Shown here piece by piece: positions 4,184 to 59,343 of a stretch of DNA of 64,000 nucleotides. The position numbers and the translations under genes are program-made. The stretch is taken from assembly GCF_002077945.1 (NCBI RefSeq), contig NZ_LVYD01000102.1, positions 124,001 to 188,000 of the forward strand. Reading direction: 5' to 3'. How positions within the stretch are numbered: position 1 is the stretch's first letter; every line of letters begins with the position of its first letter. Source of the DNA: Niastella vici (GTDB lineage: Bacteria; Bacteroidota; Bacteroidia; Chitinophagales; Chitinophagaceae). The notes under the pieces were generated by a model that had not been told where the DNA came from, did not search any database, and was given only the letters and a program-made list of their open reading frames with translations.

Positions 4184-4245
4184 GTTCCAGGTTTCAGGAC
4201 GGCGCGGCCCATTCCCGGGCGAGCCTGCAACCTGAAACTTGCAAC
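4184..4245. repeat. Intergenic palindrome, family C (GTTCCAGGTTTCAGG type)
   Basis: The left arm GTTCCAGGTTTCAGG pairs imperfectly with CCTGCAACCTGAAACTTGCAAC across a GC-rich centre (GGCGCGGCCC...CCCGGGC). It lies between two co-directional minus-strand genes. It shares words with the perfect stem at 41631-41668. Confidence 0.65.
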
Positions 4246-4259
4246 TGTATTTTTATTGC

Positions 4260-5318
4260 CTAATGGTTCTTCCCGTACAAACTTCCATTCTTTGTTTTCA
4301 GGAATTTCTCAAACGGTATTTCTTCCTGCTTAATAAATCCTTTTTGGGGTAACTCTTTATTGGCTACCATTTCTACCACAGCTGCTACCGAGGCGGCGGT
4401 TGTCCAGCTAATAGCGCGCCATTCTTTGCCATTGATCGTAATTGGATGATAAGCCTGGTAGAATTCTTCCCTTGCCAGCTCCTGCCCTTTCCAGCCTTCC
4501 ACTACGGCATATACATACACTACATCTTCCCGTACCGGCGGTTTGGCTTCCGTTAGAATTTGTTCAGTTAAGGCCCGTTTATCTTTCAGGATCAGCTCAT
4601 ATAATAAAAACCGCATGAGGCGGGCGTGCCCGGGGTAACGGATGGTCTTGTAGTTCAGTGTATCTACTTTTCCTTCCAGGGTTTCGCACAAAGTGCCCAG
4701 TCCGCCACTGGTGCTGAACGCTTCAAACTCCTGTCCTTCAATATTGATCTGTTCAATGCCATCGAGCGAGGGAACCATTTTGCGGATGCCGTTGTGTATT
4801 ACTTCGGCATCGTTGATGTATTCATTGATAACGCCGGCGGGCGACCAGGTAAAGGAATAGGCCATTAAACCATTGGGGAATCGTGGCAGGGCCCCTACCC
4901 GTAGTTCCACATCGCGCAATTTGGTAAACCGGTGGCAAAGGTCGGCGCCAACAATTCCTATAAACCCGGGCGCCAGTCCGCACTGCGGCGCCATTACGCC
5001 TTTCGATGTTTCGGCCATCTTTCGTATAGCGCTGGTAGTGGGTACGTCTTCTGTAAGATCGAAATAATGAATACCGGTTTTAAAGGCTGCTTCTGCCACC
5101 GGCAGGTTCAGGTTGTATGGTAAACACGAAACCACGGCATCCTGCTTCGACAGGGTGTTTTCCAGAAATTTTGCATCGTTTATATCTCCGGTAACTATGT
5201 TGAAAGGAAGACCGGCAGGTGCTTTTTGATCAACACCGGTAACAGTAAAGATATCATTCAGCAACGTGGCTACCAGTGAACCCACCTTGCCCAGTCCGAT
5301 AACGGCAATATTTTTCAT
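4260..5318 (-). CDS. Saccharopine dehydrogenase-like (LYS9/LKR-SDH-type) oxidoreductase
   Basis: The N-terminal Rossmann motif is NIAVIGLGKVGSLVATLL, followed by VTGDINDAKFL and DAVVSCLPYNLNLPVAEAAF as in saccharopine dehydrogenase NADP-binding domains. The C-terminal half contains APQCGLAPGFIGIVG and FSTSGGLGTLCETLEGK, typical of the saccharopine-dehydrogenase C-terminal domain. Length (352 residues) is near that of stand-alone bacterial forms. Reaction by family: saccharopine to aminoadipate semialdehyde plus glutamate, or a related carboxy-linked amine. Downstream on the same strand is a DUF1338 dioxygenase-like gene, giving two steps of a possible lysine to 2-hydroxyglutarate route. An inverted repeat lies 37 bp upstream of the start. 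Confidence 0.87.
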   Translation of the reverse strand: MKNIAVIGLGKVGSLVATLLNDIFTVTGVDQKAPAGLPFNIVTGDINDAKFLENTLSKQDAVVSCLPYNLNLPVAEAAFKTGIHYFDLTEDVPTTSAIRKMAETSKGVMAPQCGLAPGFIGIVGADLCHRFTKLRDVELRVGALPRFPNGLMAYSFTWSPAGVINEYINDAEVIHNGIRKMVPSLDGIEQINIEGQEFEAFSTSGGLGTLCETLEGKVDTLNYKTIRYPGHARLMRFLLYELILKDKRALTEQILTEAKPPVREDVVYVYAVVEGWKGQELAREEFYQAYHPITINGKEWRAISWTTAASVAAVVEMVANKELPQKGFIKQEEIPFEKFLKTKNGSLYGKNH

Positions 5319-5354
5319 AACTTATTTTAGTTAATAGAATGAGTAATAATATAG

Positions 5355-5399
5355 TTAATTGACGGGTTGGCAATAGTGCCCAGGACGCCTGTCAATTAA
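5355..5399. promoter_or_regulatory. Inverted repeat upstream of saccharopine dehydrogenase gene
   Basis: TTAATTGACGGG (5355-5366) is repeated in inverted form as CCTGTCAATTAA (5388-5399) with one mismatch and a 21-base spacer. It starts 37 bp upstream of the minus-strand start at 5318 and could be a split operator or an RNA stem. The rest of the 5319-5683 gap contains a short inverted repeat ACAAAC/GTTTGT at 5550-5565 and no convincing gene. Confidence 0.4.
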
Positions 5400-5683
5400 A
5401 GATATAGCAACAAAATCAGGATTGAATATGTGTGTAAGACATGAATACTATGGAACGTTCGCGCATGCACTTCGCAGAAATGCCAGGTATGAGTAGAATA
5501 TTTTTACGCTTTCATTCACGGTGCGAATGTATTCAAAGCTGGTTAAATAACAAACATGTGTTTGTAAAAAACATGCAAAGAGGGTTTTGCACAACCGGGA
5601 TGTGCCTGCAGCTTCCCGGCAAAAAACGGCAAGGCTAAAATCCGGTTCTCCGGAATATTCGTAACTTATAGTAAATTTTAAAT

Positions 5684-6754
5684 ATGTCTACCGGAGGCCT
5701 GCTATTTATCCCCGATATCAGTGGCTTCACTCAGTTTGTTGAAAAGACCGAGATCGAACACAGCCAGTTCATTATTAAAAACCTGCTGGAGGCATTGATC
5801 AATTGTAACCAGCTCGGTCTGCAGGTGTCGGAAATTGAGGGCGATGCCATTTTGTTTTACAAATTTGGCAACCCGCCCGGCAGTAAGGCCATTTATGAGC
5901 AGGTTGAAAAAATGTTCTGCGAATTCCATCACCTGTTGCGCAGTATCTCTGTAAAACGGCTTTGCCAGTGCGGGGCCTGTAAAGAGTCGGAGAAATTAAG
6001 CCTGAAGGTGATTACCCACCAGGGCGAATTCACTACTTACAATATTAAGGAGTTCAGTAAACTCATTGGAAAAGATGTGATAAGGGCGCACCAGTTATTA
6101 AAGAACGATATCCCCGAACATGAATACTGGCTGGTTACCGATAACCTGTATAATCAGCATTTTAAGCCTGATGAGTTGCCCGGCTGGATGAAATGGGTGC
6201 CGGGCCGGAAAGAAATAGAGAATGATGCCATCAACTTTCAATATGTATACCTGTCGCCGCTGTTAGAAAAAGTGCCGGTAGAATCGCGTTTCCCTTCTGC
6301 GCTTCAACAGGGCAAAATTGAACTGGTGCGTGTTTATAAAGAAGTGCCGGTTGATTTTATGCAGTTATTCTACCTCACTGTGAACCTCGATCTGCGCCCG
6401 CTTTGGGTAGAAGGCGTAAAGGCTATCGATAAAATGAACAATCCCGAAAACCTGGTAGGCGTGGCGCATCGTTGCATTCTTGCAAACCGCAGCGAGGTGC
6501 TTATTACCAGTCATGTTCGGGCTACTGATACCTGTATTGAATATGAGGAAACCTCCAAGGATGGCCAGCGCACCATGCATTACGAGTACAACACTACCGG
6601 TACGGGCAAAGCAATGGCTTCTTTTGTCATTTATATTAAAAAGAACGCATTGAAGTTATTCCTGTTCGATCTGTTTATGCGAAAGCGCATCACCCGCCTG
6701 CTCGAAAACTCACTGAATAACATGGTTGCGCTAAGTAAACGGCAACAGAACTGA
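5684..6754 (+). CDS. DUF2652: nucleotide-cyclase-like domain fused to SRPBCC-like domain
   Basis: The N-terminus reads LLFIPDISGFTQFVEKTE and continues to EIEGDAILFYKFG. These are the two metal-binding motifs of class III adenylate/guanylate cyclases (D11 in DISGFT, D54 in GDA). The substrate-selecting Lys/Glu-type residues of true cyclases are not evident, and the region after residue 90 contains a CQCGAC cysteine cluster. The C-terminal part (about 195-350) resembles an SRPBCC/START-like lipid- or ligand-binding fold (PVDFMQLFYLTVNLDLRPLW ... MHYEYNTTGTGKAMASFVIY). The protein ends 1 bp before the convergent amidohydrolase stop. Activity as a cyclase is unproven; a ligand-controlled degenerate cyclase is equally likely. 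Confidence 0.8.
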   Translation: MSTGGLLFIPDISGFTQFVEKTEIEHSQFIIKNLLEALINCNQLGLQVSEIEGDAILFYKFGNPPGSKAIYEQVEKMFCEFHHLLRSISVKRLCQCGACKESEKLSLKVITHQGEFTTYNIKEFSKLIGKDVIRAHQLLKNDIPEHEYWLVTDNLYNQHFKPDELPGWMKWVPGRKEIENDAINFQYVYLSPLLEKVPVESRFPSALQQGKIELVRVYKEVPVDFMQLFYLTVNLDLRPLWVEGVKAIDKMNNPENLVGVAHRCILANRSEVLITSHVRATDTCIEYEETSKDGQRTMHYEYNTTGTGKAMASFVIYIKKNALKLFLFDLFMRKRITRLLENSLNNMVALSKRQQN

Positions 6755-6755
6755 G

Positions 6756-8432
6756 CTACAGATCGGCATACATTTTCTTCAATCCTTTCTTTATATAATC
6801 GGGCAGGTTCATTTGCGCGGCTACTTTTTTAAAGAAGCTACGGTCGCCCGCTACCGTAAGGGCATCGAGTTGAATAGGCGCCAGCACGTCGGGTGTTATA
6901 TTCATGGGCGCTAACTTTTTAAAGGGCAGGCCATGTTTGGCCATGGGATCAAAATTGGGCCGTACCGCCTCGCCCTCCTCTTCATTGTGATCAAGCACCA
7001 ACACCCATTCCGGTTCTTCATGCGCCTGTAAAGGCGGTTTAAGCGGAACCAGGAAACGGTTGCCCTCCTTGTCCATCATACCACGCAGGGGCAGGGAGCG
7101 GGTGGCCAGCTTTCTGATATTGAGCAGTCCGTCCTTTACTTTTTGCGTGGCGGCCGACAGGGTCAATGCGCCTACCACGGGGTCTTGCGAAACCTGTTGC
7201 AGGTTGAACAATTTTGATTGTGCGCCAATGGTTTTGGCTTCGGCGCCGTTGCCGCCAAATTTCCGCATCAGCGTGGCATCGCCATATCGCGGCGTTCCAT
7301 TGATCACTACCAGTGAGATACTTTTTTCGGATGCCTGTAAAAGCGTGGTATAAGGATCGTTCCCCTTTCCCTTTACCACCAGCAGATCGGCGCGTTTGCC
7401 TTTTTCCAACGTACCCAATTCCTTATCCCATTTTATGATGCGGGCGGCATTTACAGTGGCCATGGCAATAAGCTCATAATCGCTGAACAGCCTGCCATTG
7501 GCTTCGCTGTAGAGTTTGGCCACTTTCAGCTCGCCCAGTAAATTCTTACTGCCGCTGGGCGACCAGTCGCTTCCCAATGCTATGGTGATGCCGCTTGCTT
7601 TGGCGCTTTTTATATCGGCCGTTTGCCCGTATAACAACAGGTTGCTGAAGGGCGACCACACCATCGACGCGCCTTTTTGTTTCATGATGGCAAAGTCGGC
7701 CGCTTGCAGCGCCACGCAATGAATACCGGTGAGTGAAGGCCCAATGGCCCATTCGTTAAGCCCCAGTCTCAGGTGTTCAAAATGCTTGCGGGCCGAAGCA
7801 TTTGTTCCTTCGCTTAAGTGCAACAGTAAGCAGGTGCTTTTTTGCAGTTGTTTCGAAAATCTGGCGGCATCGCGGGCGGTGATGTCGGGAATATGCGCAT
7901 CTACGTTAGGTAGGTTGGCATCGGCACTCTCTTCTACATTACGCACAATGCCGCGGTAATATTTTTTTATACCTGCATTGCTGAACAACATGATCCCCTG
8001 TGATGTGGTGACGCCGCCGGCCAGGCATTTGCATTCCACATACCGTACAATGGCTTCCACATACCCTTTTGTTTTTCCCAGCAGGTTCATGGGATAACTG
8101 ATGGCCTTTTTGTAGGGGTCTATGCCACTCCATTGTGCGCGGTTCTCGTACCGTTTAGGTACATTCCACATGGGCAGGCAATTATAACTTAAATGGTTGT
8201 GCAATTCTATAAAGCCGGGGAAAATGGCGCCTTTTGTTTTGTAAACAGGGTAATTGGCCAGGTTGGCTGGAACCGGTTTGCCATCGGGGATGATGGCTTC
8301 AATACGGGCCGCGTTTATGAAGATAGTGCCTTTGACAATTTCATTGGGCGCGGTCATGGTAACAATGGTGCCGTGCAATCCATAGCGGGGGCTATCCAGT
8401 GGGTCAATGGCTGGTTTCTTTGCTTTGGCCAT
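6756..8432 (-). CDS. Amidohydrolase-superfamily metal-dependent deaminase/hydrolase
   Basis: The 558-residue protein has the TIM-barrel amidohydrolase motifs: GFIELHNHLSYN near residue 75 (first metal pair, H-x-H), LLLHLSEGTN near 205, a metal His in TGIHCVAL near 235, and the catalytic Asp in ALGSDWSPSGSKN near 290. LEKGKRADLLVVKG near 345 is the composite beta-sandwich return of chlorohydrolase/cytosine-deaminase-like members. The C-terminal 150 residues are an extension not usual for small members. There is no signal peptide. Its start lies 1 bp after the stop of the upstream glycosylase-family gene, so the two are co-transcribed. Substrate unknown. Confidence 0.82.
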   Translation of the reverse strand: MAKAKKPAIDPLDSPRYGLHGTIVTMTAPNEIVKGTIFINAARIEAIIPDGKPVPANLANYPVYKTKGAIFPGFIELHNHLSYNCLPMWNVPKRYENRAQWSGIDPYKKAISYPMNLLGKTKGYVEAIVRYVECKCLAGGVTTSQGIMLFSNAGIKKYYRGIVRNVEESADANLPNVDAHIPDITARDAARFSKQLQKSTCLLLHLSEGTNASARKHFEHLRLGLNEWAIGPSLTGIHCVALQAADFAIMKQKGASMVWSPFSNLLLYGQTADIKSAKASGITIALGSDWSPSGSKNLLGELKVAKLYSEANGRLFSDYELIAMATVNAARIIKWDKELGTLEKGKRADLLVVKGKGNDPYTTLLQASEKSISLVVINGTPRYGDATLMRKFGGNGAEAKTIGAQSKLFNLQQVSQDPVVGALTLSAATQKVKDGLLNIRKLATRSLPLRGMMDKEGNRFLVPLKPPLQAHEEPEWVLVLDHNEEEGEAVRPNFDPMAKHGLPFKKLAPMNITPDVLAPIQLDALTVAGDRSFFKKVAAQMNLPDYIKKGLKKMYADL

Positions 8433-8433
8433 A

Positions 8434-9219
8434 TCAGTTGAATTTGGGGGCTTTCCATAAAAGGGTGTGTCCGTCGTCGGGCGATGGCCGGCTCACACTG
8501 TTCATACCCCGCTTTTTTCTGAAGAAGGCATCGTTACCGAACCAGTCGGGTATACCAAAGGGCAGGTCCAGGGCCGGAATGGCCGCATAATCCTGTTCGG
8601 CGAATTTGTCGCCATACAGGGGCTTGTTGGTGGCAGCGCCCTCATCGGGCGTAATGATCCCGCGCAGGGCGGTTACCACCCGGTTCCAATCGGTGAGCAT
8701 TTTTTTTTCACCGGCAGCCCCGCCCGAATGATAACTGGGATGATAGGTCTCAAACACCGGAATATTGCCTTTGGTATCCCATAGCTGCACCGTTTTCTTT
8801 GCCACATCGCCAAAGGCCACTATCGCCTGCAACGAAGGCTTTTTTAGCATGTTGAAGAGCTTGTTGCGCCAGGTGGTCAAATCGGGGCGGCTCAGGAGTT
8901 TTATGCCGTCGCCCAGGTGGCTGGGGTGCAAAGCAAAGGCCCACCCGTTCACGCAGGTATACGATTGGGTTAACCCGATCTTTTGCAGAAAGCCCTGCAC
9001 CCTTTGCCCGGCATTGCCTACCAGGGTGCGGCCTGCAATGCGTTCGGTTGGGCCGGGGTCTGAAGCCACCAGAATTATTTTGGCGCTGCCATCGAGACGG
9101 CCCCGGTAAAACACCGGACCCCAGTCGTACCAGAAATTGTTTTTAATGTCGGTGTGATCGGGCAGGGCGGCAAAGTGTTTTACAAATGCTGCACCGGGCC
9201 CTTTGTCGAACTGGATCAT
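8434..9219 (-). CDS. Uracil-DNA glycosylase family protein
   Basis: The motif ASDPGPTERIAGRTLVGNAG (about residues 52-71) is the family-4/5-like water-activating and uracil-binding loop in altered form. FETYHPSYHSGG (about 157-168) supplies the C-terminal His-Pro-Ser minor-groove loop, and AIVAFGDVAKK is the central strand. I chose the ATG at 9219 (MIQFDKGPG) because the longer frame up to 9327 adds 36 residues that look non-coding. No 4Fe-4S cysteine set is visible, so it is not a classical family-4 enzyme. It is coupled to the downstream amidohydrolase (1 bp gap). A repair role is likely but substrate specificity is not deducible. Confidence 0.75.
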   Translation of the reverse strand: MIQFDKGPGAAFVKHFAALPDHTDIKNNFWYDWGPVFYRGRLDGSAKIILVASDPGPTERIAGRTLVGNAGQRVQGFLQKIGLTQSYTCVNGWAFALHPSHLGDGIKLLSRPDLTTWRNKLFNMLKKPSLQAIVAFGDVAKKTVQLWDTKGNIPVFETYHPSYHSGGAAGEKKMLTDWNRVVTALRGIITPDEGAATNKPLYGDKFAEQDYAAIPALDLPFGIPDWFGNDAFFRKKRGMNSVSRPSPDDGHTLLWKAPKFN

Positions 9220-9461
9220 AATACATGGTTTTATGGTCAATGATGAATGCTTGCCCGCTGTAGTTTTAGCGTAAGCGGGGTCAATGCTTCGCCTGGTAAA
9301 GCCCAGTGAAAGCAGGTCCATTGGCAATTGATAACCGGGGTGCAGATTATGATCAGTTCATCAACAGAGATGGTTAGTTGGGTGGGAATACCGGCTATTA
9401 AAGCTACTAACTCCGGCGTTTTATGCCAACCGTAGTTTTACTGATTTTAATTAGTTTTTGA

Positions 9462-10199
9462 TCAAAAGGTATAACGGTCAACCTCCCGCAGGGCTCTTTC
9501 GAAGTCTTCGTTCTTCCACCAGCCCACTTCCTTGTATTTTTTACTCAGTATGGCGGCCAGTTCTTTTTTCGTGTGTGGCTTGCTTTTCTTTACAACAGGC
9601 GGAGCTATCTTCGTGTCATCGGCCAGCTCAACCTTTGTGGCAAACCAGGTAGTGAACTCCCGGGGAATGGCCAGCCCGAGAATCATTCCGGGTAAGCCGC
9701 TAAAGAATTCCGGTCCGCCCTGTGGCACTATCTCGGGGCAATAGAACGCTACCACATAAACGCTGTCGTGAATAACGCCGATGGCTTTGCGGCAATCGAA
9801 ACCGGCTATCTTCCTGATCTCGTTTTCTATCTTCCACTTTATTGGCCGAACACTATCGGCCAGTAAATAGGGTTCGTTTATGAAGTATTGTTGTGAAATG
9901 GTTTGCCTGTTCTCAAGATCGGTATATAAACTGTTATCAGCAGCGAAATACGTGGTTGTTCCCCTGCGGCCCAGCGTATACAATAACTGGTTCCCGGCAA
10001 ACACCAGGTCGCGGTAATAAATATCGAATTCGGGCTTACTGGCTATCCAGCTATTGCTGGCCCGCTCGGCATCGGTGTATATTCTTTTATTATTCTTTTT
10101 TATTTCATATTCTATTTTACCCCGGGTAATAAAATCCTGGGCACTTGTTTGTTGCGAGAGAAACAGCGAGGAGCATATAATAAACAACAACAGTTTCAT
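9462..10199 (-). CDS. GLPGLI family secreted protein (245 aa)
   Basis: A signal peptide (residues 1-20, ending TSAQ) is followed by a protein of the Bacteroidota GLPGLI family; the naming motif appears as SGLPGMILGLAIP near residue 167. GKIEYEIKKNN at the start and DCRKAIG in the middle also fit. GLPGLI proteins are periplasmic or outer-membrane associated, of unknown function, and are regularly encoded next to TonB-dependent-receptor-like barrels. Here the start is 7 bp after the stop of such a barrel gene (10207-12984), so they form one operon. Confidence 0.88.
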   Translation of the reverse strand: MKLLLFIICSSLFLSQQTSAQDFITRGKIEYEIKKNNKRIYTDAERASNSWIASKPEFDIYYRDLVFAGNQLLYTLGRRGTTTYFAADNSLYTDLENRQTISQQYFINEPYLLADSVRPIKWKIENEIRKIAGFDCRKAIGVIHDSVYVVAFYCPEIVPQGGPEFFSGLPGMILGLAIPREFTTWFATKVELADDTKIAPPVVKKSKPHTKKELAAILSKKYKEVGWWKNEDFERALREVDRYTF

Positions 10200-10206
10200 A
10201 CAGCGT

Positions 10207-14896: not shown

Positions 14897-14900
14897 CAAA

Positions 14901-15038
14901 AGAAGCAGGAAGTAAGTAGTAATTGTTGATTTTGAGATTTTTAGATTTGGGGATTTGTCAGGAATTGAATTTCCCGATAAATCTCAGGATCTCTACATCC
15001 CGCAATCTCAAAATTCCTACTATTACTTCCTGCTCCTT
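14901..15038. repeat. Intergenic palindrome, family A (GAAGYAGGAAGTAAG type)
   Basis: The left side, AGAAGCAGGAAGTAAGTAGT then GATTTTGAGATT, is mirrored on the right by AATCTCAAAATTCC and TATTACTTCCTGCTCCTT. The interior contains further GATTT-type words. It occupies most of the gap before the lipoprotein gene. Related copies are at 20658, 22050, 36855 and 42214. The rest of the 14869-15228 gap holds only the 14-bp tandem repeat near its end. Confidence 0.75.
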
Positions 15039-19136: not shown

Positions 19137-19154
19137 AATATAAATGCTTAATAT

Positions 19155-20657: not shown

Positions 20658-20818
20658 GGAGACAGAAGTAAGAAGTAGGAAGTACGAAATTTAGAGATTT
20701 CGGGATTTAGAGATTTCGGGATTTAGAGATTTTGAGATTTATCGGAAAAATCAATTCAGTACAAATCCCAAAATCTCTAAATCTCAAAATCAGCAATTAC
20801 CTCCTACTTCTGTCTCCT
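20658..20818. repeat. Intergenic palindrome, family A, with internal 16-bp tandem repeats
   Basis: GGAGACAGAAGTAAGAAGTA on the left is mirrored by CCTCCTACTTCTGTCTCC on the right. Inside, ATTTAGAGATTTCGGG occurs twice perfectly (20689-20704, 20705-20720) and once in variant form (20721-20736), mirrored by CAAAATCTCTAAATCTCAAA. It lies between convergent gene ends (SusD and the pirin-like gene). Confidence 0.8.
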
Positions 20819-22049: not shown

Positions 22050-22212
22050 AGGTTAAAGGTAGAAAGTAGAAGGTTTGGGAACAGGTTTATTAACTTGTAA
22101 TCTTTGGTTTTTCAATCAGTATTTTGTTAATAATTTTTCCGGAACGCTTTGCTATCATTCCGAGGTATACACAATTAAGAAGCTGTTACCTTAAACCTTC
22201 TACCTTCAACCC
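22050..22212. repeat. Long-range inverted repeat related to family A (AAGGTAGAAGGTTT words)
   Basis: GGTTAAAGGTAGAAAGTAGA followed by AGGTTT on the left is mirrored by TTACCTTAAACC and TTCTACCTTCAACCC on the right, about 110 bases apart. The arms end next to the two flanking minus-strand genes (start at 22025, stop at 22219). Confidence 0.55.
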
Positions 22213-36854: not shown

Positions 36855-36919
36855 GAAGTAGGAAGTAAGAAGTAAGAGGTAAGAAAAACCTGTATTTCTT
36901 ACTTCCTACTTCTTACTTC
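36855..36919. repeat. Intergenic palindrome, family A (cleanest copy)
   Basis: GAAGTAGGAAGTAAGAAGTA with AGAGGTAAGAAA is mirrored by TTTCTTACTTCC and TACTTCTTACTTC around a short AACCTGTA centre. It separates the SusD gene from the next co-directional gene, which starts 23 bp after it. A separate 12-bp palindrome AGAAGATCTTCT lies just before it at 36829-36840. Confidence 0.85.
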
Positions 36920-41630: not shown

Positions 41631-41668
41631 GTTCCAGGTTGCAAATTTGGAAGTCCGCAACCTGGAAC
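41631..41668. repeat. Intergenic palindrome, family C (perfect 12-bp stem)
   Basis: GTTCCAGGTTGC (41631-41642) and GCAACCTGGAAC (41657-41668) are perfectly complementary around AAATTTGGAAGTCC. It lies 6 bp after one stop and 9 bp before the convergent stop, so it may form the 3' end of both transcripts, although it has no T-tract. Confidence 0.85.
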
Positions 41669-42213: not shown

Positions 42214-42272
42214 GAAGTAGGATGTAAGAAGTAGGAAAATACAAAATTCAAGATCTTCTTACCTCCTACTTC
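42214..42272. repeat. Intergenic palindrome, family A
   Basis: GAAGTAGGATGTAAGAAG pairs with CTTCTTACCTCCTACTTC with one mismatch; the loop includes GTAGGAAAATACAAAATTCA. It lies between a gene start (42136, minus) and the porin stop (42317, minus). Confidence 0.8.
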
Positions 42273-48965: not shown

Positions 48966-49035
48966 GTTACCGGTTACCGGATACCAGTTACCCGTTTTCC
49001 CGGCAACCGGAACCCGGGACCAGGAAACTGATAAC
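48966..49035. repeat. Intra-operon palindrome, family B (GTTACCGG words), leuC-leuD junction
   Basis: GTTACCGGTTACCGGATACC and AGTTACCCGTTTTCCCGG on the left are imperfectly mirrored by CCGGCAACCGGAACCCGGGA and CCAGGAAACTGATAAC. It begins 2 bp after the leuC stop. Confidence 0.7.
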
Positions 49036-49667: not shown

Positions 49668-49736
49668 AGTTCCAAAATACAGATCCCAAGTTCCAAATTC
49701 CAAATTGGTTCCAGGAACTTGGGATTTGGAATTTTT
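49668..49736. repeat. Intra-operon palindrome, family E (AAGTTCCAAATTCC words), leuD-synthase junction
   Basis: ATCCCAAGTTCC (49683-49694) and GGAACTTGGGAT (49714-49725) are perfect complements; TTCCAAA/TTTGGAA extends the stem outward with a bulge. The loop carries AAATTCCAAATTGGTTCCA. It ends 7 bp before the next start codon, which would lie at the foot of the hairpin. Confidence 0.85.
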
Positions 49737-51269: not shown

Positions 51270-51330
51270 GTTACCAGTTACCAGATTCCGGTTCCCGGGC
51301 CCTGGTAACTGGCAACCGGTAACCGGTAAC
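51270..51330. repeat. Intra-operon palindrome, family B, synthase-leuB junction
   Basis: GTTACCAGTTACCAGATTCC and GGTTCCCGGG are mirrored by CCCTGGTAACTGGCAACCGG and TAACCGGTAAC. It begins 2 bp after the synthase stop, exactly like the copy after leuC. Confidence 0.8.
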
Positions 51331-52457: not shown

Positions 52458-52482
52458 AATACTATAGGTACATTTTTGTAGG

Positions 52483-52596: not shown

Positions 52597-53043
52597 ATGA
52601 AAACTGACAAATATCCATTGAGGTCAGAAGAAAGTTATACGGTTTTTGAGTTTATCAGTTGGGGGCCAAAAGGATTTGTTCACAAGCTTGTTCACTTTCA
52701 AAAAACAGATGCCCCGGGACTATATAACTTAGCTTTTGGAGACAAGAATCATGAAACAGGCGAATTGGATGATCTGGCCAAAACTAATAATGGCGACAGT
52801 GAAAAAGTTTTGGCGACTGTTGTTGCTGCCTTATATGCATTTTTTACCAAACATCCAGAGGCCCTTGTTTACGCAACTGGCAGTACCACCTCAAGAACAA
52901 GGCTTTATCGCAGGGGTATCACCAAATATTATGACGAAATGGTGATTGATTTTCAAGTGTTTGGGCAGGTTGGTAATGAATTTCATCTATTTGAAACAGG
53001 TAAAGATTATTCAGGATTTTTAGCTCAAAGAAAAAAAACTTAA
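52597..53043 (+). CDS. DUF6934-like protein, copy 2 (148 aa)
   Basis: Same length and layout as the protein at 26320-26766: YTVFEFISWGPKGFVHKLVH, NLAFGDKNHETGELDD, TNNGDSEKVLATVVAALYAF, TGSTTSRTRLYRRGI, then a C-terminal FQVFGQVGNEFHLFE. The two proteins are clearly homologous but well diverged, so they are not a recent tandem copy. It is followed 23 bp later by a 53-aa ORF. Family assignment (DUF6934) is from memory; function unknown. An imperfect inverted motif ACTGGTAG...CAATCAGT lies 50-75 bp upstream. Confidence 0.78.
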   Translation: MKTDKYPLRSEESYTVFEFISWGPKGFVHKLVHFQKTDAPGLYNLAFGDKNHETGELDDLAKTNNGDSEKVLATVVAALYAFFTKHPEALVYATGSTTSRTRLYRRGITKYYDEMVIDFQVFGQVGNEFHLFETGKDYSGFLAQRKKT

Positions 53044-53066
53044 ATTGCATTTATATATATGTATAT

Positions 53067-53228
53067 ATGAAAAACATACAGGAGTTCAATAATCGCAAAG
53101 TGCCTGTTATATGCATTGACCCTTCACTTGAAAAGTACCGGGATAAAACTCCTTTTCCCGAAAAATTGGCTAAGGCAAATGAAATGCTTAAGACAGCTAA
53201 ATTGCCAAACAAGAAAAAACGCAACTAA
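53067..53228 (+). CDS. 53-aa partner protein of DUF6934-like copy 2
   Basis: Starts MKNIQEFNNRKVPVICIDPS and continues LEKYRDKTPFPEKLAKANEM before a lysine-rich tail. It has the same length as the ORF at 26777-26938 and the shared pattern D-P-x-L ... P-x-K-L-x-x-A-N-x-x-L. It follows the DUF6934-like gene by 23 bp and is closed by a terminator hairpin. Conserved pairing supports it as a real gene. Function unknown. Confidence 0.72.
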   Translation: MKNIQEFNNRKVPVICIDPSLEKYRDKTPFPEKLAKANEMLKTAKLPNKKKRN

Positions 53229-53252
53229 AGTTATCATACAATATAAGTAATT

Positions 53253-53284
53253 AAAAGGGTGGGCATTCAGTGTCCCACCCTTTT
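53253..53284. terminator. Bidirectional terminator
   Basis: AAAAGGGTGGGC and GTCCCACCCTTTT form a stem with A- and T-tracts on the two sides, placed between convergent gene ends (53228 and 53291). The stem repeats the one at 3179-3224. Confidence 0.88.
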
Positions 53285-53290
53285 CGCGTT

Positions 53291-53668
53291 TTATAATGTA
53301 GCGCCTGCTTTCTTTCTGTCGATCATTTTTTCCATGAGGTCGGGCACTTTATCAAATACGGCGCTTAGTCCTTTATTTGATTTTGTAGAAATAAAGGAGA
53401 TCTGATCGCCACGGGTTACCAGAAAACCTATAGGTTCAACCCCCATTCCGCCACCGGCGCCTCCGCCAGTGCCTTCACCCTGGCCTTTACCATCCTGCCG
53501 GCCTGTCCCTTCTCCACCGCCATAGCCAACGCCCATTCCGAATTTAATAACCGGTACACAGGTAAATTCGCCTAACTGGAATGATTGCCCTATCACCGTT
53601 TCTGTCTTTGCTTCTGTTTTTAACAATTCGGTAAGCTGCTTTACCGTTTCATCGAGATTAAATGACAT
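53291..53668 (-). CDS. YtfJ/GerW-like protein
   Basis: Start taken at the ATG 53668 (MSFNLDETVKQLTELLKTEA), eight residues inside the longest frame. The pattern VIGQSFQLGEFTCVPVIKFG, a long Gly-rich segment with GYGGGEGTG and GGGAGGGMGVEPIGFLV, then VPDLMEKMIDR, is that of the GerW/YtfJ family. In Bacillus these act in spore germination, but homologues occur in non-sporulating bacteria with unknown roles. The gene follows the YtfI-like gene (53703-54197) with a 34-bp gap on the same strand. Confidence 0.85.
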   Translation of the reverse strand: MSFNLDETVKQLTELLKTEAKTETVIGQSFQLGEFTCVPVIKFGMGVGYGGGEGTGRQDGKGQGEGTGGGAGGGMGVEPIGFLVTRGDQISFISTKSNKGLSAVFDKVPDLMEKMIDRKKAGATL

Positions 53669-53702
53669 AACATGATATTTTACGGTTAACAAATAGAATC
53701 GC

Positions 53703-54197
53703 TTATCTGCGGAGATAAGCCATTAACATTTTCCAAACCTGGTTGTGGATGCGGATGAAAAAATAGTTTTCGTTGGTGAAGTTGATTCTCAGGTGACCAC
53801 ATAAGGCGGGATAAAATGTAAAAGGATACAGTTCGGCATTTTTTGCAAAATCCCCGGTATCAATCGAAAGCTGCCATTGCTGTACCGTACAACTGCGCAG
53901 TACCTGCCACCCTTTTTTTAGTTTTGGGAGCATGTTTTTCGGTTTGGCAGCTCTGGCTTTTTTTTCAGCTGGCTTTTTCTTTTTGCCTGTTTGCGCTGAC
54001 AGCCTGAATGTGTGCCTGTAAAATAGTATCTGTACATTCAACAACCACTCCTGTTGAAACCAGATCCTGCATTGGCCTACAGACACCCATCGCAAATTAG
54101 CTTCCGGTACTCTTGTATCGATCTCAATATATAAGGGCATGGTTAACAACCAAATGATAAACAAGCCTATAAGTAATATGATTATTATAAGTAGCAC
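53703..54197 (-). CDS. DUF2953/YtfI-like membrane-anchored protein (164 aa)
   Basis: An N-terminal membrane helix (MLLIIIILLIGLFIIWLLTM) is followed by a short beta region (PLYIEIDTRVPEANLRWVSV), a Lys/Ala-rich linker (about 92-110), and QQWQLSIDTGDFAKNAELYP near the end. The linker and the W-x-L-x-I-D-T-G-D segment resemble Bacillus YtfI (DUF2953), whose gene is also adjacent to ytfJ. Similarity is by layout and should be treated as moderate. First gene of a two-gene operon with the YtfJ-like gene. Confidence 0.6.
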   Translation of the reverse strand: MLLIIIILLIGLFIIWLLTMPLYIEIDTRVPEANLRWVSVGQCRIWFQQEWLLNVQILFYRHTFRLSAQTGKKKKPAEKKARAAKPKNMLPKLKKGWQVLRSCTVQQWQLSIDTGDFAKNAELYPFTFYPALCGHLRINFTNENYFFIRIHNQVWKMLMAYLRR

Positions 54198-54301
54198 TGC
54201 TTATAAAGTTCCACCTATAATCAGAAAAGAAAAATGAGCAGGATCAGGCGGTTGCATGATAGAAATGAGGTTTGCAAACACGAGAAATCCTGTAAGCGCT
54301 C

Positions 54302-54566
54302 CTAATACACCAACTGATTCGCATAACGCCTTAACTGCAGTTCAGCTACCTTGGCGGCAAAACTTGTATTGATGAGCAGGTAACCTGCATTCTCAAAACT
54401 CTGCTGCGCATTTTTAATATCAACAATGGTGGCCTGCCACGCCATAACTGTTATTAATATCTGCTATAATTTGAGGAGCAATTTGCCACCAGGCTGCACG
54501 GTTATCAGGTGCAGCTTTTGCAGTTACCAGAACCAGCAATAACAAGGATAATCCTGTCTTTTTCAT
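54302..54566 (-). pseudogene. Frameshifted remnant of a small secreted protein
   Basis: From the ATG at 54566 the frame reads MKKTGLSLLLLVLVTAKAAP, a signal peptide, then NRAAWWQIAPQIIADINNSY, and meets a stop at 54420. From about 54437 a second frame continues AWQATIVDIKNAQQSFENAG, LLINTSFAAKVAELQLRRYA and NQLVY to a stop at 54302. Both halves look coding and differ by a single-base frame, so this is probably one gene of about 88 residues broken by a frameshift, or two overlapping ORFs. Nothing else is seen in the 54198-54798 gap except the inverted repeat at 54638. Confidence 0.5.
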
Positions 54567-54637
54567 AGCCAACCTGTTTTAATGTTCTGCATTAACAGAC
54601 GTTAAAAGAACTGGCCATCTGGTTACAAATGCATTCA

Positions 54638-54662
54638 TTAACCATCAATTAAGATTGGTTAA
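54638..54662. promoter_or_regulatory. Inverted repeat upstream of glucarate operon
   Basis: TTAACCA and TGGTTAA, 11 bases apart, lie 137 bp before the first gene of the glucarate operon, and a third GGTTAAC follows at 54668. This could be an operator for a local regulator; no regulator gene is adjacent. A near-consensus TACCTTTA lies closer to the start. Confidence 0.4.
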
Positions 54663-54798
54663 TGAGGGGTTAACAAAATAAAAACAGGGCGGCACTCATA
54701 AGTATGCCAAATAAGGGCAGAATTGTGTTAGAAACAGATAATTACGTAAATTATATCTCTTTAATTTAGATCTACCTTTACCATAGGAATCAGGCCAT

Positions 54799-55584
54799 AT
54801 GAAGCATTTAAAAAAACAACTGCAACAGGGCGCCACCCTGCATGGCTGCTGGCTGAATTTAGGCAGCGCGGTAACCGCCGAGATCGTGGGCTTATCAGGA
54901 TTCGACTGGGTGCTGCTAGACCTTGAACATGGGGCGGGAACCGAAAAGGATGTGTATCACCAGTTGCAGGCGCTTGAACATACGCCGGCTGCTGCTATTG
55001 TTCGCATCGAGAGCGCTCAACGGCAACGCATCCATCGCATACTCGATATGGGTGCTGAAGGCATTATGTGCCCCCGCATTAGCAATACAGCTGAAGCTGC
55101 TGCGGTTGCCAGCGGTTTGCATTATCCGCCCGATGGTACGCGGGGTGTTGCCAAAATGGTGCGGGCCACTTCGTTCGGACAAAATTTTCAAAACTATTAT
55201 CAGCAGGCAAAAGAAAATATTGTAGGGATAGTGCAGATAGAGACCATTGAAGTGCTTGACCACCTCGACGAAATTGCCGCGCTCGATGGCATAGACGTGT
55301 TGTTTATTGGTCCGGCCGATTTAACCATGGCCCTCGGCATTTTTGGCCAGTTCGATCATCCATTATACCTCGATGCGGTAAAAGCCACGGTGAATGCAGC
55401 TAACAAGGCTGGCAAGGCAACCGGCATATTATTCTTTAATGCAGGTGAATATGCCCGCTACAGCAGCATGGGCATACGCATGATCGCCTGCGGCGCCGAC
55501 GCCACATTTGTGGCTGATGCGGCGCGCAACATGGCCAGTACATTACAAACATTGCGGAGCTCCGGAAAAACAGGCATGCCATGA
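54799..55584 (+). CDS. garL: HpcH/HpaI-family aldolase, probable 5-keto-4-deoxy-D-glucarate aldolase
   Basis: The class II aldolase pattern is complete: TLHGCWLNLGSAVTAEIVGL, FDWVLLDLEHGAGTEKDVYH (acidic/His loop), RILDMGAEGIMCPRISN, then VGIVQIETIEVLDHLDEIAA (metal-binding Glu) and DVLFIGPADLTMALG (metal-binding Asp). Family reaction: 5-keto-4-deoxyglucarate to pyruvate and tartronate semialdehyde. Assignment within the family (GarL versus other HpaI aldolases) rests on the operon with gudD, garR and a GntP permease. Its stop overlaps the permease start by four bases. Confidence 0.87.
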   Translation: MKHLKKQLQQGATLHGCWLNLGSAVTAEIVGLSGFDWVLLDLEHGAGTEKDVYHQLQALEHTPAAAIVRIESAQRQRIHRILDMGAEGIMCPRISNTAEAAAVASGLHYPPDGTRGVAKMVRATSFGQNFQNYYQQAKENIVGIVQIETIEVLDHLDEIAALDGIDVLFIGPADLTMALGIFGQFDHPLYLDAVKATVNAANKAGKATGILFFNAGEYARYSSMGIRMIACGADATFVADAARNMASTLQTLRSSGKTGMP

Positions 55585-57047
55585 CGTTATCCTTATTCTT
55601 AGCTGAACCGGTTGTTATATTATTTACCGGCATTGTTATAGTGGCCGGTGGTATCATCGCAATAAAACTGCATCCTTTTCTGGCGCTTTTATTAGGCGCG
55701 CTGGTGGTGGCTATTATGACGCCTGCATCGGCTGTTGAACAATATGCGCTCAGCAAAGGCGCCACGGCGGCTGCGGCCCTGCAACAGGCAAACCGCAGCG
55801 TTGGGGAAAGAGTCGCGCTGGAGTTTGGTAATACCTGTTCAAAAATAGGCATCATCATAGCCATGGCGGCCATCATCGGAAAATGCCTGCTCGAAAGTGG
55901 CGCCGCAGAACGCATAGTACGATCGGTATTACGGCTCACCGGTTTACAAAGAGCCCCGGTAGCTTTTATTATGAGTAGTTTTTTTGTGGGCATTCCCGTG
56001 TTCTTTGATGCAGTGATCTTACTCATGACACCATTGGCGAAAACCATAAGCCTGCGGCTGGGAAAGAATTATCTCCTGTTCATTTTGGCTATTGCCGGTG
56101 GCGCTGCTATGGCCAACTCACTGGTGCCACCAGCCCCTGGGCCCCTGTTCCTCGCTGGTGAAATGCATATTGCCATGGGCTCCATGATGATCGCCGGTAT
56201 ATTACTGGGACTATTCACCATTACAGCTGGTTATTATTATGCCGTATGGGTAAATAAAAAATGGCCGGTGGCATTAAGAGATTCACTCGATGCAAAGCTG
56301 GAAGATATCAGGACTGTTTCATTACAGGAAACCAAACAGCTTCCGCCCCTATGGCTGTCGATGCTGCCATTGCTGATACCATTGGTGTTTATATGCGCCG
56401 ATACAGCATTGCATTCCATACATGGCGGCCGTCCGGCGGAAATATCTTCGTCCCTGTTCTTACAAAAAATGGCGGCTGTAATAAAATTCCTGGGCGACAG
56501 GAATATTGCGCTGGTAATTGGGGCACTTGTTTCGCTAATAATACTGCGGGTACATAAAAAAGCAACCCGGGAAGGGCTAAGTTCATTTTTGCAGGGAGCG
56601 GTGATCAGCGCAGGTAGTATTATACTCATCATTGCTGCAGGCGGCGCTTTTGGCGGCATGTTGCAGCAAACAGGCATCAGTGAGCGCATTGCCGGGGTTA
56701 CAAAAGATTACCAGATGGCACTGATCCCAATGGCATTTTTTATCACTGCTATTGTAAGAACCGCACAGGGATCGGCAACGGTGGCATTGATCACCGCATC
56801 GGGTATACTGTCGGGATTAACGCATAATGCCCATCTTCCGTATCATCCCCTGTATATAGGGCTCGCTATAGGCTGCGGCTCAAAATTAATACCCTGGATG
56901 AATGATGCCGGGTTCTGGCTCATCTGTAAAATGAGCAACCTTACTGAAAAAGAAACCCTGAGAGCATTTGCGCCCATGCTGTTGGTAATGGGGCTTACGG
57001 GATTGATCATCATTATGATCGCAGCGAAACTGTTGCCACTGGTATAA
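55581..57047 (+). CDS. GntP-family gluconate/sugar-acid:H+ symporter
   Basis: The 488-residue membrane protein has about 12-14 hydrophobic segments and GntP features: LHPFLALLLGALVVAIMTP near 30, GNTCSKIGIIIAMAAIIGKC near 90, VGIPVFFDAVILLMTPLAKT near 135, and NSLVPPAPGPLFLAGEMHIA near 175. RTAQGSATVALITASGIL near 395 is the second half-repeat signature. It imports sugar acids; D-glucarate is the likely substrate from the operon. Translation is coupled to the aldolase gene through an ATGA overlap. Confidence 0.92.
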   Translation: MTLSLFLAEPVVILFTGIVIVAGGIIAIKLHPFLALLLGALVVAIMTPASAVEQYALSKGATAAAALQQANRSVGERVALEFGNTCSKIGIIIAMAAIIGKCLLESGAAERIVRSVLRLTGLQRAPVAFIMSSFFVGIPVFFDAVILLMTPLAKTISLRLGKNYLLFILAIAGGAAMANSLVPPAPGPLFLAGEMHIAMGSMMIAGILLGLFTITAGYYYAVWVNKKWPVALRDSLDAKLEDIRTVSLQETKQLPPLWLSMLPLLIPLVFICADTALHSIHGGRPAEISSSLFLQKMAAVIKFLGDRNIALVIGALVSLIILRVHKKATREGLSSFLQGAVISAGSIILIIAAGGAFGGMLQQTGISERIAGVTKDYQMALIPMAFFITAIVRTAQGSATVALITASGILSGLTHNAHLPYHPLYIGLAIGCGSKLIPWMNDAGFWLICKMSNLTEKETLRAFAPMLLVMGLTGLIIIMIAAKLLPLV

Positions 57048-57072
57048 GAATATAAAACCTGTACATAAATTA

Positions 57073-57954
57073 TTGATAATGGAAAAAGTAGGATTTATTG
57101 GGTTAGGCATCATGGGCAAGCCCATGGCATTGCATTTGGTAAAAGCAGGTTATCCTGTATATGTATTGCAAAAAAGTAAAGCAGCTGCAGAGCTGGTTGA
57201 GGCAGGCGCCAAAGCGCTGGCTACCGGTAAGGCCATAGCGCAGGCGTGTGATATCATCATTACCATGCTGCCCGATTCGCCTGAAGTGTTGGAAGTTGTT
57301 ACAGGCCCCGAAGGAATTGTGGAAGGCGTAAAGCCGGGCAGTTTGTTTATCGATATGAGCACCATTGCCCCGTCTGCTGCAAAGGAAATTTACCAGCTAT
57401 TACAGGCAAAGGATGTGGAGGCGCTGGATGCACCTGTATCGGGCGGACAGGTAGGCGCCACCGCTGCTTCTCTTTCCATTATGGTGGGTGGTAATGCGGC
57501 TGCATTTGAGCGGGCCCTGCTCCTGTTCAATGCAATGGGAAAAAATATTGTGCACATTGGTGAAGCAGGCGCCGGACAAATGACAAAAGCCTGCAACCAA
57601 ATGATCGTGGGTATGACCATACAGGCAGTGGCCGAAGCTTTTGCCCTGGCCAAAAAAGCGGGTGTTGATCTGGAGAAAATGCGGGAAGTGCTGCTGGGCG
57701 GTTTTGCGCAAAGCCGCATTCTAGATCTGCATGGAAAACGGATCATAGAAGAAAACTTTGCACCCGGCTTCAAAATAAAACTACACCGGAAAGACATGAA
57801 TATAGCCTTACAGGCCGGAAAGGAATTTTCGGTTCCGCTATACGGAACGGCACAGGTAAGCGCTCATATGGATGCCTTGATTGCCCAGGGAAAGGGAGAA
57901 TGGGACCATAGTGCTATTGCCTGGCTCATACAACAATTGTCGGGAACCCATTAG
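57073..57954 (+). CDS. garR: Tartronate semialdehyde (2-hydroxy-3-oxopropionate) reductase
   Basis: A beta-hydroxyacid dehydrogenase: GFIGLGIMGKPMALHLVKAG at the N-terminus (NAD(P) Rossmann fold), FIDMSTIAPSAAKEIYQLL near 95, DAPVSGGQVGATAASLSIMV near 118 (substrate site), and GQMTKACNQMIVGMTIQAVA near 165 with the catalytic Lys. It ends with QGKGEWDHSAIAWLIQQL, common in this family. It reduces tartronate semialdehyde from the GarL step to D-glycerate. It starts 25 bp after the permease. Confidence 0.9.
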   Translation: MIMEKVGFIGLGIMGKPMALHLVKAGYPVYVLQKSKAAAELVEAGAKALATGKAIAQACDIIITMLPDSPEVLEVVTGPEGIVEGVKPGSLFIDMSTIAPSAAKEIYQLLQAKDVEALDAPVSGGQVGATAASLSIMVGGNAAAFERALLLFNAMGKNIVHIGEAGAGQMTKACNQMIVGMTIQAVAEAFALAKKAGVDLEKMREVLLGGFAQSRILDLHGKRIIEENFAPGFKIKLHRKDMNIALQAGKEFSVPLYGTAQVSAHMDALIAQGKGEWDHSAIAWLIQQLSGTH

Positions 57955-57983
57955 CAATTCCTGTTACCAGTTACAGAAAGATA

Positions 57984-59318
57984 ATGAAACCAACCAATCA
58001 GTTTTTACCTCATATGAAAATCAAAAGTGCGCCACGGATCAGGGAAATGATCATAACACCCATCGCCATTACCGATCCACCTCTATTGAACGCTGCAGGT
58101 TTGCATGCACCTTATGCCTTACGTACTATTGTTGAACTGATCACTGATGATAACATCTCAGGTGTCAGTGAAATACCAGGCAATACAAGCATCAATGAAG
58201 CACTTGAGGAAGCCCGTCAGTTGATCATAGGAAGATCGCCCATACAGTTAAGCAGCATTGGCCGGGAACTGGAAAGTTATTTTGGTAAAGAAACCGCATC
58301 AGCGCGTGGAGAAACGCCCTGGGACCAGCGAAAGCTGGTGCATATTTTCAGCGCCATAGAAGTGGCCTGTTTGGATATCATTGGAAAAATTACCGGGCTG
58401 CCGGTAGTAGATCTGCTGGGTGGAAAAATGCGCGACCGTGTTCCTTTTGCTGCCTATCTTTTTTACAAATACGAAGGCGCCGGTGGCGAGTTGGGTTTTA
58501 ACATTGACAGGAACGCTACGGGATGGAACGCCGCCCGTCAGGCAAAAGCGATTGACCCGGAAGGTATTGTACACCAGGCAAAAGCCATGGGCAAGACATT
58601 CGGGTTCCGCTCTATAAAATTAAAAGGCGGTGTATTTGAGCCGGACCAGGAAACCGCAGCCGTTTTTGCGTTGCGTGAAGCCTTCGGCGAGCATATTCCA
58701 TTACGAATTGATCCGAATGCTTTATGGACGGTTGAAACTTCTATTCAGTACGGCCGTAAAATGGAAGGCATTATCGAATACCTCGAAGATCCTACGCGGG
58801 GGCAGAAAAATATGTCCATCGTGCGGCAGGCGCTAAAAACGCCATTGGCGACCAATATGTGTACTACCTCTTTCGATGATATACCAGGCAGTGTTGCCGT
58901 TGGTGCCGAAGATATTATTCTCAGCGATCATCATTTCTGGGGCGGGTTACGGGCCTCCATGGAATTATCAAAAATATGCAGCACGTTCGGCCGGCATCTT
59001 TCCATGCATTCAAACAGCCATCTGGGTATTTCGCTGGCGGCTATGGTTCACCTCGGTGCTGCCCTTCCCCATTTGCCCTACGACCTCGATACGCATTATC
59101 CCTGGCAGTCAGACGAGGTCATAAAAACGGGTCGCTTCAATTTTGAAGATGGCGCCATTGCGGTTCCTAATGAGCCTGGTTTAGGCGTAGAGCTCGACCG
59201 GCAGGCATTGGCCCGGCTGCATCAGAATTATCTACAATGCGGTTTAACCAAACGGGATGATGAAACGGAAATGCAAAAAGTAGTGCCGGGCTGGAAATTT
59301 GAGGCAGTACGCTGGTGA
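57984..59318 (+). CDS. gudD: Glucarate dehydratase (enolase superfamily)
   Basis: Two starts are possible (57984 and 58014); the conserved part begins at MKIKSAPRIREMIITPI. Enolase-superfamily residues are visible: LHAPYALRTIVELITDDNIS and GVSEIPGN at the start, FRSIKLKGGVFEPDQE (catalytic Lys, K-x-K), LRIDPNALWTVETSIQ (metal Asp and Asn), EYLEDPTRG, ILSDHHFWGGLRASMELSKI, and the general base His in LSMHSNSHLGISLAAMVHLG. It converts D-glucarate to 5-keto-4-deoxyglucarate, the substrate of the garL product. The position as last gene is unusual since it performs the first step. Confidence 0.92.
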   Translation: MKPTNQFLPHMKIKSAPRIREMIITPIAITDPPLLNAAGLHAPYALRTIVELITDDNISGVSEIPGNTSINEALEEARQLIIGRSPIQLSSIGRELESYFGKETASARGETPWDQRKLVHIFSAIEVACLDIIGKITGLPVVDLLGGKMRDRVPFAAYLFYKYEGAGGELGFNIDRNATGWNAARQAKAIDPEGIVHQAKAMGKTFGFRSIKLKGGVFEPDQETAAVFALREAFGEHIPLRIDPNALWTVETSIQYGRKMEGIIEYLEDPTRGQKNMSIVRQALKTPLATNMCTTSFDDIPGSVAVGAEDIILSDHHFWGGLRASMELSKICSTFGRHLSMHSNSHLGISLAAMVHLGAALPHLPYDLDTHYPWQSDEVIKTGRFNFEDGAIAVPNEPGLGVELDRQALARLHQNYLQCGLTKRDDETEMQKVVPGWKFEAVRW

Positions 59319-59322
59319 TACT

Positions 59323-59343
59323 AGTTACCGGCGTACCGGTACT
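59323..59343. repeat. Short palindrome with family-B words (AGTTACCGG/CCGGTACT)
   Basis: AGTTACCGG and CCGGTACTT-type arms lie between convergent stops (59318 and 59348). It is a minimal relative of the GTTACCGG elements of the leu operon. Confidence 0.45.

Follow-up and report, generated by a model that had tools for sequence, protein, structure and literature searches.

The window analyzed here, a stretch of 64,000 nucleotides from the 10.06-Mb draft genome of a Niastella species (Niastella vici, Bacteroidota; genome G000, contig C102, positions 124001-188000), contains intergenic palindromes with arms that each consist of tandemly repeated 7- or 8-bp words. Genes of the PF05635 family lie in the loops of larger palindromes built from such words, and across nine related genomes a word is generally abundant where the PF05635 gene flanked by that word is resident. 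This suggests a new kind of gene-plus-scattered-repeat partnership. We think it rather probable that the partnership resembles REPIN-RAYT systems (hairpin-forming doublets of repetitive extragenic palindromic [REP] sequences and the REP-associated tyrosine transposase), with the PF05635 product, here called the IVP protein, and not a transposase, as the word-specific factor acting in trans. The comparison set consisted of nine further Niastella genomes besides G000, and the quantitative case rests on this one genus; all assemblies are drafts from which repeats may be missing, and genes were called as the longest open reading frames (ORFs).

Intergenic palindromes are built from iterated words

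The original prediction, made from the letters of the window, had described imperfect palindromes with internal tandem iteration in eleven gaps. When all eleven sites were read and folded, ten proved to be clear inverted repeats in gaps, and the one at 59323 was weak (score 8). The window contains 21 intergenic inverted repeats with a score of at least 11, and its three Markov shuffles contain 7, 4, and 1; a 400-kb stretch of another G000 contig contains 67, and its shuffles 18, 8, and 11. The excess is about 3-20-fold and about 4-8-fold, respectively. The tandem iteration is equally non-random. In 1.104 Mb from nine Niastella genomes, gaps contained 107 tandem segments of period 7 versus 3 in a whole-sequence shuffle and 45 of period 8 versus 0; periods 6, 9, and 10 gave 4, 1, and 3 segments and all other periods from 3 to 13 gave 0-9, leaving only periods 7 and 8 and their multiples to stand out.

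By eye, each array has a constant core and a few freer positions, as in GAAGTA+N, GTTACC+R, GATTT+NGR, GTTRAC+NN, and many more. The arms are far from unique, in keeping with the repeated families first proposed: GAAGTAGGAAGTA has 111 matches in the G000 genome, and the same letters in reverse order have one. Among the matches listed, at least 12 close plus-minus pairs of GAAGTAGGAAGTA have the plus copy to the left of the minus copy, and the left arm therefore bears the G-word; this polarity is not absolute, as it is reversed at the PF05635 locus L216. A likeness to integron attC sites was considered and dropped since the polarity looked opposite. Arms pair better in their observed order than with their units permuted at 52 of 61 testable gene loci and in 47 of 60 testable gene-less elements, in a test that is somewhat biased toward the observed order because arm ends were chosen in that order. 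Strict criteria yielded 148 gene-less word palindromes in 2.304 Mb of the nine genomes (29-162 per Mb, depending on the genome), which by extrapolation amounts to several hundred per genome, all word families together. A run of at least five T's stood beside 20 of these 148 versus 29 of 123 other short-loop hairpins, so the elements do not look like intrinsic terminators, as had been supposed from the lack of T-tracts at most window sites.

PF05635 genes lie between arms of the same kind

In two relatives (G003 and G005), the gap orthologous to the window site at 51270 holds a PF05635 gene between AGGCAAC-type octamer arms, and in a third (G002) this gene is truncated. We therefore examined the family, PF05635 (23S_rRNA_IVP) or TIGR02436, four helix bundle protein, whose function is given as not known as of 2016 in PMC4990558. 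The genus contains 73 matches, and 14 control genomes contained no match to PF05635. Seventy of the 73 were examined, the remaining three being weak and two of them second halves of broken ORFs already counted; one locus (L242) scores under the family cut-off, and eight short or broken ORFs were assigned to lineages by hand using homology and arms.

Flanking inverted repeats with a score of at least 15 were present at 66 of the 70 loci versus 2 of 121 control ORFs of like size (at a score of at least 12, 69 of 70 versus 20 of 121), and period 7 or 8 was dominant in the flanks of 67 of 70 loci versus 33 of 121 controls. The sole locus below 12, L180, runs into a contig end, and the side that is left bears a word array. 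The median number of units per arm is 4.6, with about four in 24 and about five in 23 of the 70 loci. G000 has just two PF05635 genes, and their arms consist of GAAGTAR and GATTTNGR, respectively.

About 20 PF05635 lineages exist in the genus, set in arrays of differing words and differing in their patterns of presence across genomes. We had first thought it likely that these genes are mobile, and rejected this when flanks proved homologous in 85 of 87 same-lineage pairs (at least 60% identity); a lineage keeps its locus, with losses, and the genes are vertically inherited. They are single-copy, except that one lineage has several members in one genome. Words drift within a lineage, to the point that the orthologous arms of L179 and L186 have almost no 6-mers in common. 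The ORF itself can be inverted between its arms while the flanks match from left to right (L176 versus L190, L197, and L201-L204; L230 and L231 versus L222, L225, and L226). As minor observations, tRNA genes lie near two of the loci (L187 and L188), and a Bacteroidales small signal recognition particle RNA lies beside the weak match L242.

Beyond the genus, 90 of 118 sampled Bacteroidota genomes have PF05635 matches, up to 16 per genome. Among 30 of these loci that were read, for which there was no control set, arms scored at least 15 at 24, and most loci had a period-7 or period-8 array. The closest solved relative by sequence of one IVP protein is 2gsc, followed by 2rld. The Xanthomonas S23p protein forms a toroid-shaped homopentamer built of four-helix bundles (PMC4990558), and PF05635 is described as resembling Avd of diversity-generating retroelements (PMC10053308). 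When three IVP proteins were tried against the Avd model NF033474, only one matched, at 18.5 bits versus a cut-off of 80.

Word abundance largely follows the resident gene

We counted matches to five words in the genomes with and without the corresponding PF05635 gene. GAAGTAG, GATTTNGR, and GTTACCR were taken from the families of the original prediction, GTTTRTD was picked after viewing gene arms, and the outcome for the fifth word, GTTRACNN, was predicted before its search. One genome (G007, 61% complete) was left out before the association tests, and nine near-complete genomes were used, with these counts:

GATTTNGR: 187, 247, 153, 383, and 72 with the gene; 10, 15, 64, and 2 without
GTTTRTD: 307, 719, 272, 670, and 97 with the gene; 12, 28, 60, and 19 without
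GAAGTAG: 111 and 74 with the gene; 8, 21, 1, 11, 13, 55, and 62 without
GTTACCR: 348, 107, 202, and 86 with the gene; 249, 25, 35, 3, and 36 without
GTTRACNN: 475, 358, 126, 548, and 318 with the gene; 3, 11, 19, and 118 without

Residency separates the counts completely for four of the five words, GTTACCR being the exception. Taken jointly, 91 of 94 genome pairs are concordant, a value reached by 1 of 60,000 permutations of the genome labels. The GTTRACNN prediction mostly held in that the ranking was as predicted; the reversed-pattern control for this word reaches 61 in G005 and 34 in G006, and the reversed GTTACCR pattern was spoiled as a control because it is identical to another word family (ACCATTG). 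The GTTTRTD contrast stays complete if a truncated gene in G008 is counted as absent. The omitted G007 has 14 matches to GAAGTAG, 0 to GATTTNGR, 9 to GTTACCR, 9 to GTTTRTD, and 547 to GTTRACNN, along with one PF05635 match, which belongs to another lineage than those of the five words.

A second test on the same genomes assigned the 148 gene-less elements to lineages by means of the arms of other genomes only. The assigned lineage was resident for 92 of 135 elements at similarity 0.2 (permuted mean 61.5, fraction reaching 0.00055), for 83 of 117 at 0.3 (52.3, 0.00005), and for 73 of 99 at 0.4 (44.7, 0.0001); with an earlier, smaller element set the fraction was 0.0016. The four contrasts that we drew between close genomes run in the expected direction, for instance 86 GTTACCR matches in G008 versus 35 in G005 and 74 GAAGTAG matches in G006 versus 1 in G003.

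These counts bear on two explanations that require no trans-acting factor. Mutation alone might suffice, with slippage expanding heptamers and template switching folding arrays into palindromes. In its favor, a perfect single-arm array does occur (AGGCAGA, in G006), arms pair better in order than with units permuted, and a heptamer excess is reported elsewhere (PMC4679880). Against it, a word may be present at numerous unrelated loci of one genome and all but missing from a congener; local mutation is disfavored because it would not share words between loci, and we judge this explanation very unlikely. Shared ancestry would instead have gene and palindromes both be old and disappear jointly from a few clades, without being functionally linked. 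Only nine genomes are usable, and the three without both the GATTTNGR and the GTTTRTD genes (G003, G006, and G009) are mutual closest relatives by identity, which fits such a history. The GTTRACNN lineage, however, is distributed in almost the opposite way, and the prediction made for it was mostly borne out. The lineages also differ in their patterns of presence, and we consider shared ancestry quite unlikely.

Several observations weigh against a word-specific partnership. G004, without the GTTRACNN gene and expected to be low, has 118 matches versus 126 in G006 with the gene. G000 has 249 GTTACCR matches while being gene-less, and its assembly contains no gene of the GTTACCR lineage, intact or broken. 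For GTTNCAR words, with 31-228 matches per near-complete genome, no gene partner was found. Two of the four close-genome contrasts are small (GATTTNGR, 72 in G005 versus 64 in G008; GAAGTAG, 74 in G006 versus 62 in G009). A dialect test asked whether palindromes favor the arms of their own genome over orthologous arms, and gave no significant result (n = 92, p = 0.09). The correlation between arm word and protein identity (Mantel r of 0.65) is confounded, since orthologous loci account for 85 of the 87 same-lineage pairs, and is not evidence for recognition. Word hits are array positions, several per array, and not elements, such that long arrays inflate them; the genomes are few and related, and both label permutations ignore phylogeny. 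Evidence on the movement of palindromes consists of presence and absence between species only.

A strong Y1_Tnp match is present in all ten genomes

The original prediction had proposed looking for a RAYT-type transposase, and each of the ten genomes has one strong Y1_Tnp match. The ten loci (L282-L291) are orthologous and align over their whole length, and a heptamer array lies near the gene at nine of the ten (not L285), AATGGTC-like or AATCGGC-like depending on the species. Both facts favor a true REPIN-RAYT system, in which the Y1 tyrosine transposase would copy all palindromes and the PF05635 ORFs would be passengers in the loops. We nevertheless consider this unlikely. Y1_Tnp is ubiquitous in the ten genomes, whereas differences in word abundance are largely tracked by PF05635 residency; because it is present in all ten, it cannot alone explain word-by-word differences. 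The arrays beside it are of one word type, whereas about 20 PF05635 lineages are set in others. For GAAGTAR and GATTTNGR, moreover, the matching genes are the two PF05635 genes of G000 and not a Y1 transposase. The AATGGTC/AATCGGC word pair is also seen in the arms of two PF05635 loci (L215 and L207), and the orthologous Y1_Tnp could be a shared enzyme with IVP proteins as its word-specific adaptors.

Weaker Y1_Tnp matches (L294 and L297) lie between inverted repeats ending in GACCTGTMAGGT, an arrangement like that of an insertion sequence. The palindrome filling the gap orthologous to window site 20658 in G006 is similar to these inverted repeats.

Proposed mechanism

In the partnership that we favor, the palindromes would be non-autonomous hairpin repeats in many families, each with one 7- or 8-bp word repeated about four to five times in each of two inverted arms, and many families would each belong to a single-copy PF05635 gene, which sits in the loop of a longer palindrome written in the family's word. 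The iterated word would be recognized by the IVP protein, whose solved relative forms a ring of five four-helix bundles; since arms have four to five words and the ring has five subunits, our guess is approximately one word per subunit. The TRAP ring provides an analogue of each subunit reading one word. Acting in trans on palindromes of its word, the IVP protein may aid their copying, presumably at the DNA level, into sites mostly just behind stop codons, or their keeping there. Once a gene is lost, copies of its word would dwindle, and the sites would then fill with palindromes of words backed by resident genes.

More tentatively, word-specific recognition could be the job of PF05635 in general, with rings serving populations of hairpins, selfish or domesticated, in trans across Bacteroidota, one lineage for one 7- or 8-nt word and one word per subunit. 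Propagation would then proceed without a transposase of its own, perhaps by borrowing either the replication fork or a Y1 nuclease; the intervening sequence (IVS) of rRNA would be a stray member of the group. We offer this wider proposal as a possibility rather than as our expectation.

If each PF05635 protein does read its own short word in many hairpins, a role can be given to the family, and a large class of intergenic hairpins has its origin explained. The matched pairs of protein and word would then form a natural library, from which a recognition code might be derived. The REPIN-RAYT way of life would also have a second, unrelated counterpart, making the question of why bacteria keep such repeats testable in independent systems. 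Among the titles and abstracts listed in a literature search that left most subscription journals outside, no description of a partnership between PF05635 and word palindromes was present.

Comparison with known systems

REPIN-RAYT systems consist of dispersed intergenic inverted doublets and a vertically inherited partner gene that is present once and next to its own repeat, with repeats commoner where the gene is present (PMC8049555, PMC3116915). The Niastella palindromes are likewise dispersed, intergenic, inverted doublets able to form hairpins; the PF05635 genes are likewise single-copy, vertical, and flanked by their own repeat; and words are commoner where the gene is resident, with the exceptions of GTTACCR in G000 and the near-tie between G004 and G006 for GTTRACNN. 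The fidelity of RAYT genes to their loci described in PMC8049555 also resembles that of the PF05635 lineages. In contrast, the partner is a four-helix bundle protein here and a Y1 transposase for REPINs, and Niastella differs further in having arms of iterated degenerate 7- or 8-mers, a gene inside the loop, and about 20 partner-gene lineages within one genus.

The IVS of 23S rRNA has complementary ends that form a hairpin, with an S23p/IVP ORF of the PF05635 type in its loop (PMC4990558), and the Niastella loci share this arrangement. None of the 70 Niastella loci lies in an rRNA gene, however, an Rfam search detecting no rRNA in any of them, and the Niastella system differs further in its arms of iterated words and in the many palindromes that have the same word but no ORF.

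Heptamer tandem repeats also occur in cyanobacteria, as the short tandemly repeated repetitive sequences (STRRs). TAACTGA repeats of Beggiatoaceae, cyanobacteria, and some Bacteroidetes are short and mostly intergenic with a 7-nt unit (PMC4679880), as are many Niastella arrays. They are described there as a single word repeated directly, apart from one inverted instance, whereas the Niastella arrays come in inverted pairs, use many words of 7 or 8 nt, and are tied to genes. The BrickBuilt miniature inverted-repeat transposable element (MITE) of Porphyromonas gingivalis has an internal minisatellite and 19 copies in one strain (PMC4596501). It too is an intergenic element of a Bacteroidota species, combining tandem units with inverted ends, and differs in its 23-nt unit; the abstract of that report does not mention a PF05635 gene.

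Word palindromes of the window and their orthologous gaps

The sites of the window are as follows, with no strand assigned to any of them:

4181..4241, word palindrome of the GTTCCAG/GTTTCAG type between two minus-strand genes, inverted repeat score 13
14900..15038, nested palindrome with outer GAAGTAR arms and inner GATTTNGR arms
20658..20817, nested palindrome with outer GAAGTAR arms and inner GATTTNGR octamers between convergent genes, inner score 23
22051..22211, word palindrome of the AGGTTAA/AGGTAGA type
36855..36919, GAAGTAR word palindrome about 45 nt after a SusD-family gene (Pfam)
41631..41668, GTTCCAG/GTTGCAA word palindrome between convergent genes
42214..42272, GAAGTAR word palindrome
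48966..49028, GTTACCG word palindrome immediately behind a stop codon
49667..49734, GTTCCAA/ATTCCAA word palindrome (site E), inverted repeat of 21 nt, 86%
51270..51330, GTTACCA/GTTACCG word palindrome two nt after a stop codon, score 16
59323..59343, weak GTTACCG-like palindrome, a doubtful member with a short inverted repeat of score 8

Five of the sites had been grouped as one family, which in fact mixes two words, GAAGTAR and GATTTNGR, nested in each other at 14901 and 20658; the member at 22050 does not belong there, as it uses AGGTTAA/AGGTAGA instead. Site E falls in a gap provided that the following gene begins at ATG 49744; the mechanical ORF list starts it at the TTG at 49705. No resident PF05635 partner for GTTCCAA words was found in G000.

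Much of the window has the same surrounding gene order in eight congeners, which allowed orthologous gaps to be compared. The gap at 4181 has a word palindrome in three of eight relatives, two with other words and G003 with a similar word. At 20658, four of five genomes have word palindromes, including GAAGTAR in G008, GAATRTC-like words in G003, and GAGTAGY-like words in G002; the palindrome of G006 is without words. Gaps orthologous to 22051 are empty, at 11-33 nt, in G003, G006, and G008. The 36855 gap has GAAGTAR also in G006 and GATTTNGR in G001, G004, G005, and G008. At 41631, the window and all eight relatives have a word palindrome, with words that vary (GTTACC, GTTNCA, GAGTAG). GAAGTAR recurs at 42214 in G006 and G008, with the gap empty in G005 and other words in G001, G003, and G004. 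The gap at 48966..49028, presumably that between leuC and leuD, has GTTTATG words in G001, G002, and G005, GTTACAG words in G003, G004, and G008, and no palindrome in G006 and G009. At site E, N. populi, N. soli, and N. yeongjuensis have GAAATGA/GAAATTA words.

An orthologous gap thus frequently has its palindrome written in another word, or has no palindrome: palindromes are often kept in sister species, and words often are not. With arms repeated and palindromes often kept, the refuting outcomes named in the original prediction did not occur. The initial suggestion of REP- or MITE-like mobile sequences is accordingly apt in outline on the REP side, the elements being dispersed, intergenic, and missing from some gaps of relatives.

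Mean occupancy in relatives was 0.53 for 14 gaps occupied in the window versus 0.21 for the other 13 (p = 0.01), with a caller that scored mononucleotide-shuffled gaps as occupied in 17 of 174 cases and whose seven positive calls at the AT-rich gap 44721|47561 look false. Site E was missed in this comparison because its gap ended at TTG 49705. In 100 co-directional gaps, the median distance from the upstream stop to the palindrome was 6 nt; 56 palindromes lay within 10 nt of that stop, and only 12 lay within 10 nt of the downstream start. Occupied divergent gaps are rarer, at 0.25 per kb versus 0.59-0.85 for other gap types.

The position behind stop codons, the low occupancy of divergent gaps, and the occupancy of the same gaps across species all agree with a regulon, in which IVP proteins would bind word hairpins behind stops and control mRNA 3' ends, the sites being kept by selection rather than by self-copying, in a post-transcriptional or nucleoid role. 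Two results argue against this. Words at one site differ between species, and there is no signature of an RNA stem: sense-strand mismatches of the G-U and A-C kinds are about equal in the 100 co-directional elements (139 versus 127), and no asymmetry was found among the co-directional ones of 84 elements (97 versus 88) or in the arms of the 70 PF05635 loci (80 versus 88). Following these three tests we rejected selection for RNA stems, which had been put forward as an alternative at the outset; upkeep is therefore more likely at the DNA level, and a regulon seems improbable to us.

Other palindromes and arrays

A second, non-periodic class of palindromes with GGGTGGG/CCCACCC ends is present in the window at 3183-3224 and 53237-53300, and the gap orthologous to the former holds related GGGTGAG palindromes in G005, G006, and G008. 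In G006, the gap orthologous to window positions 19137-19154 contains the perfect single-arm AGGCAGA array, eight units long, which resembles the arms of that genome's PF05635 gene L196. Lastly, G000 contig C58 carries a very long palindrome at approximately 470419-470740, with arms of about 150 nt made of TTTAACGCAAA and TTAAATCGAAACGCC words.

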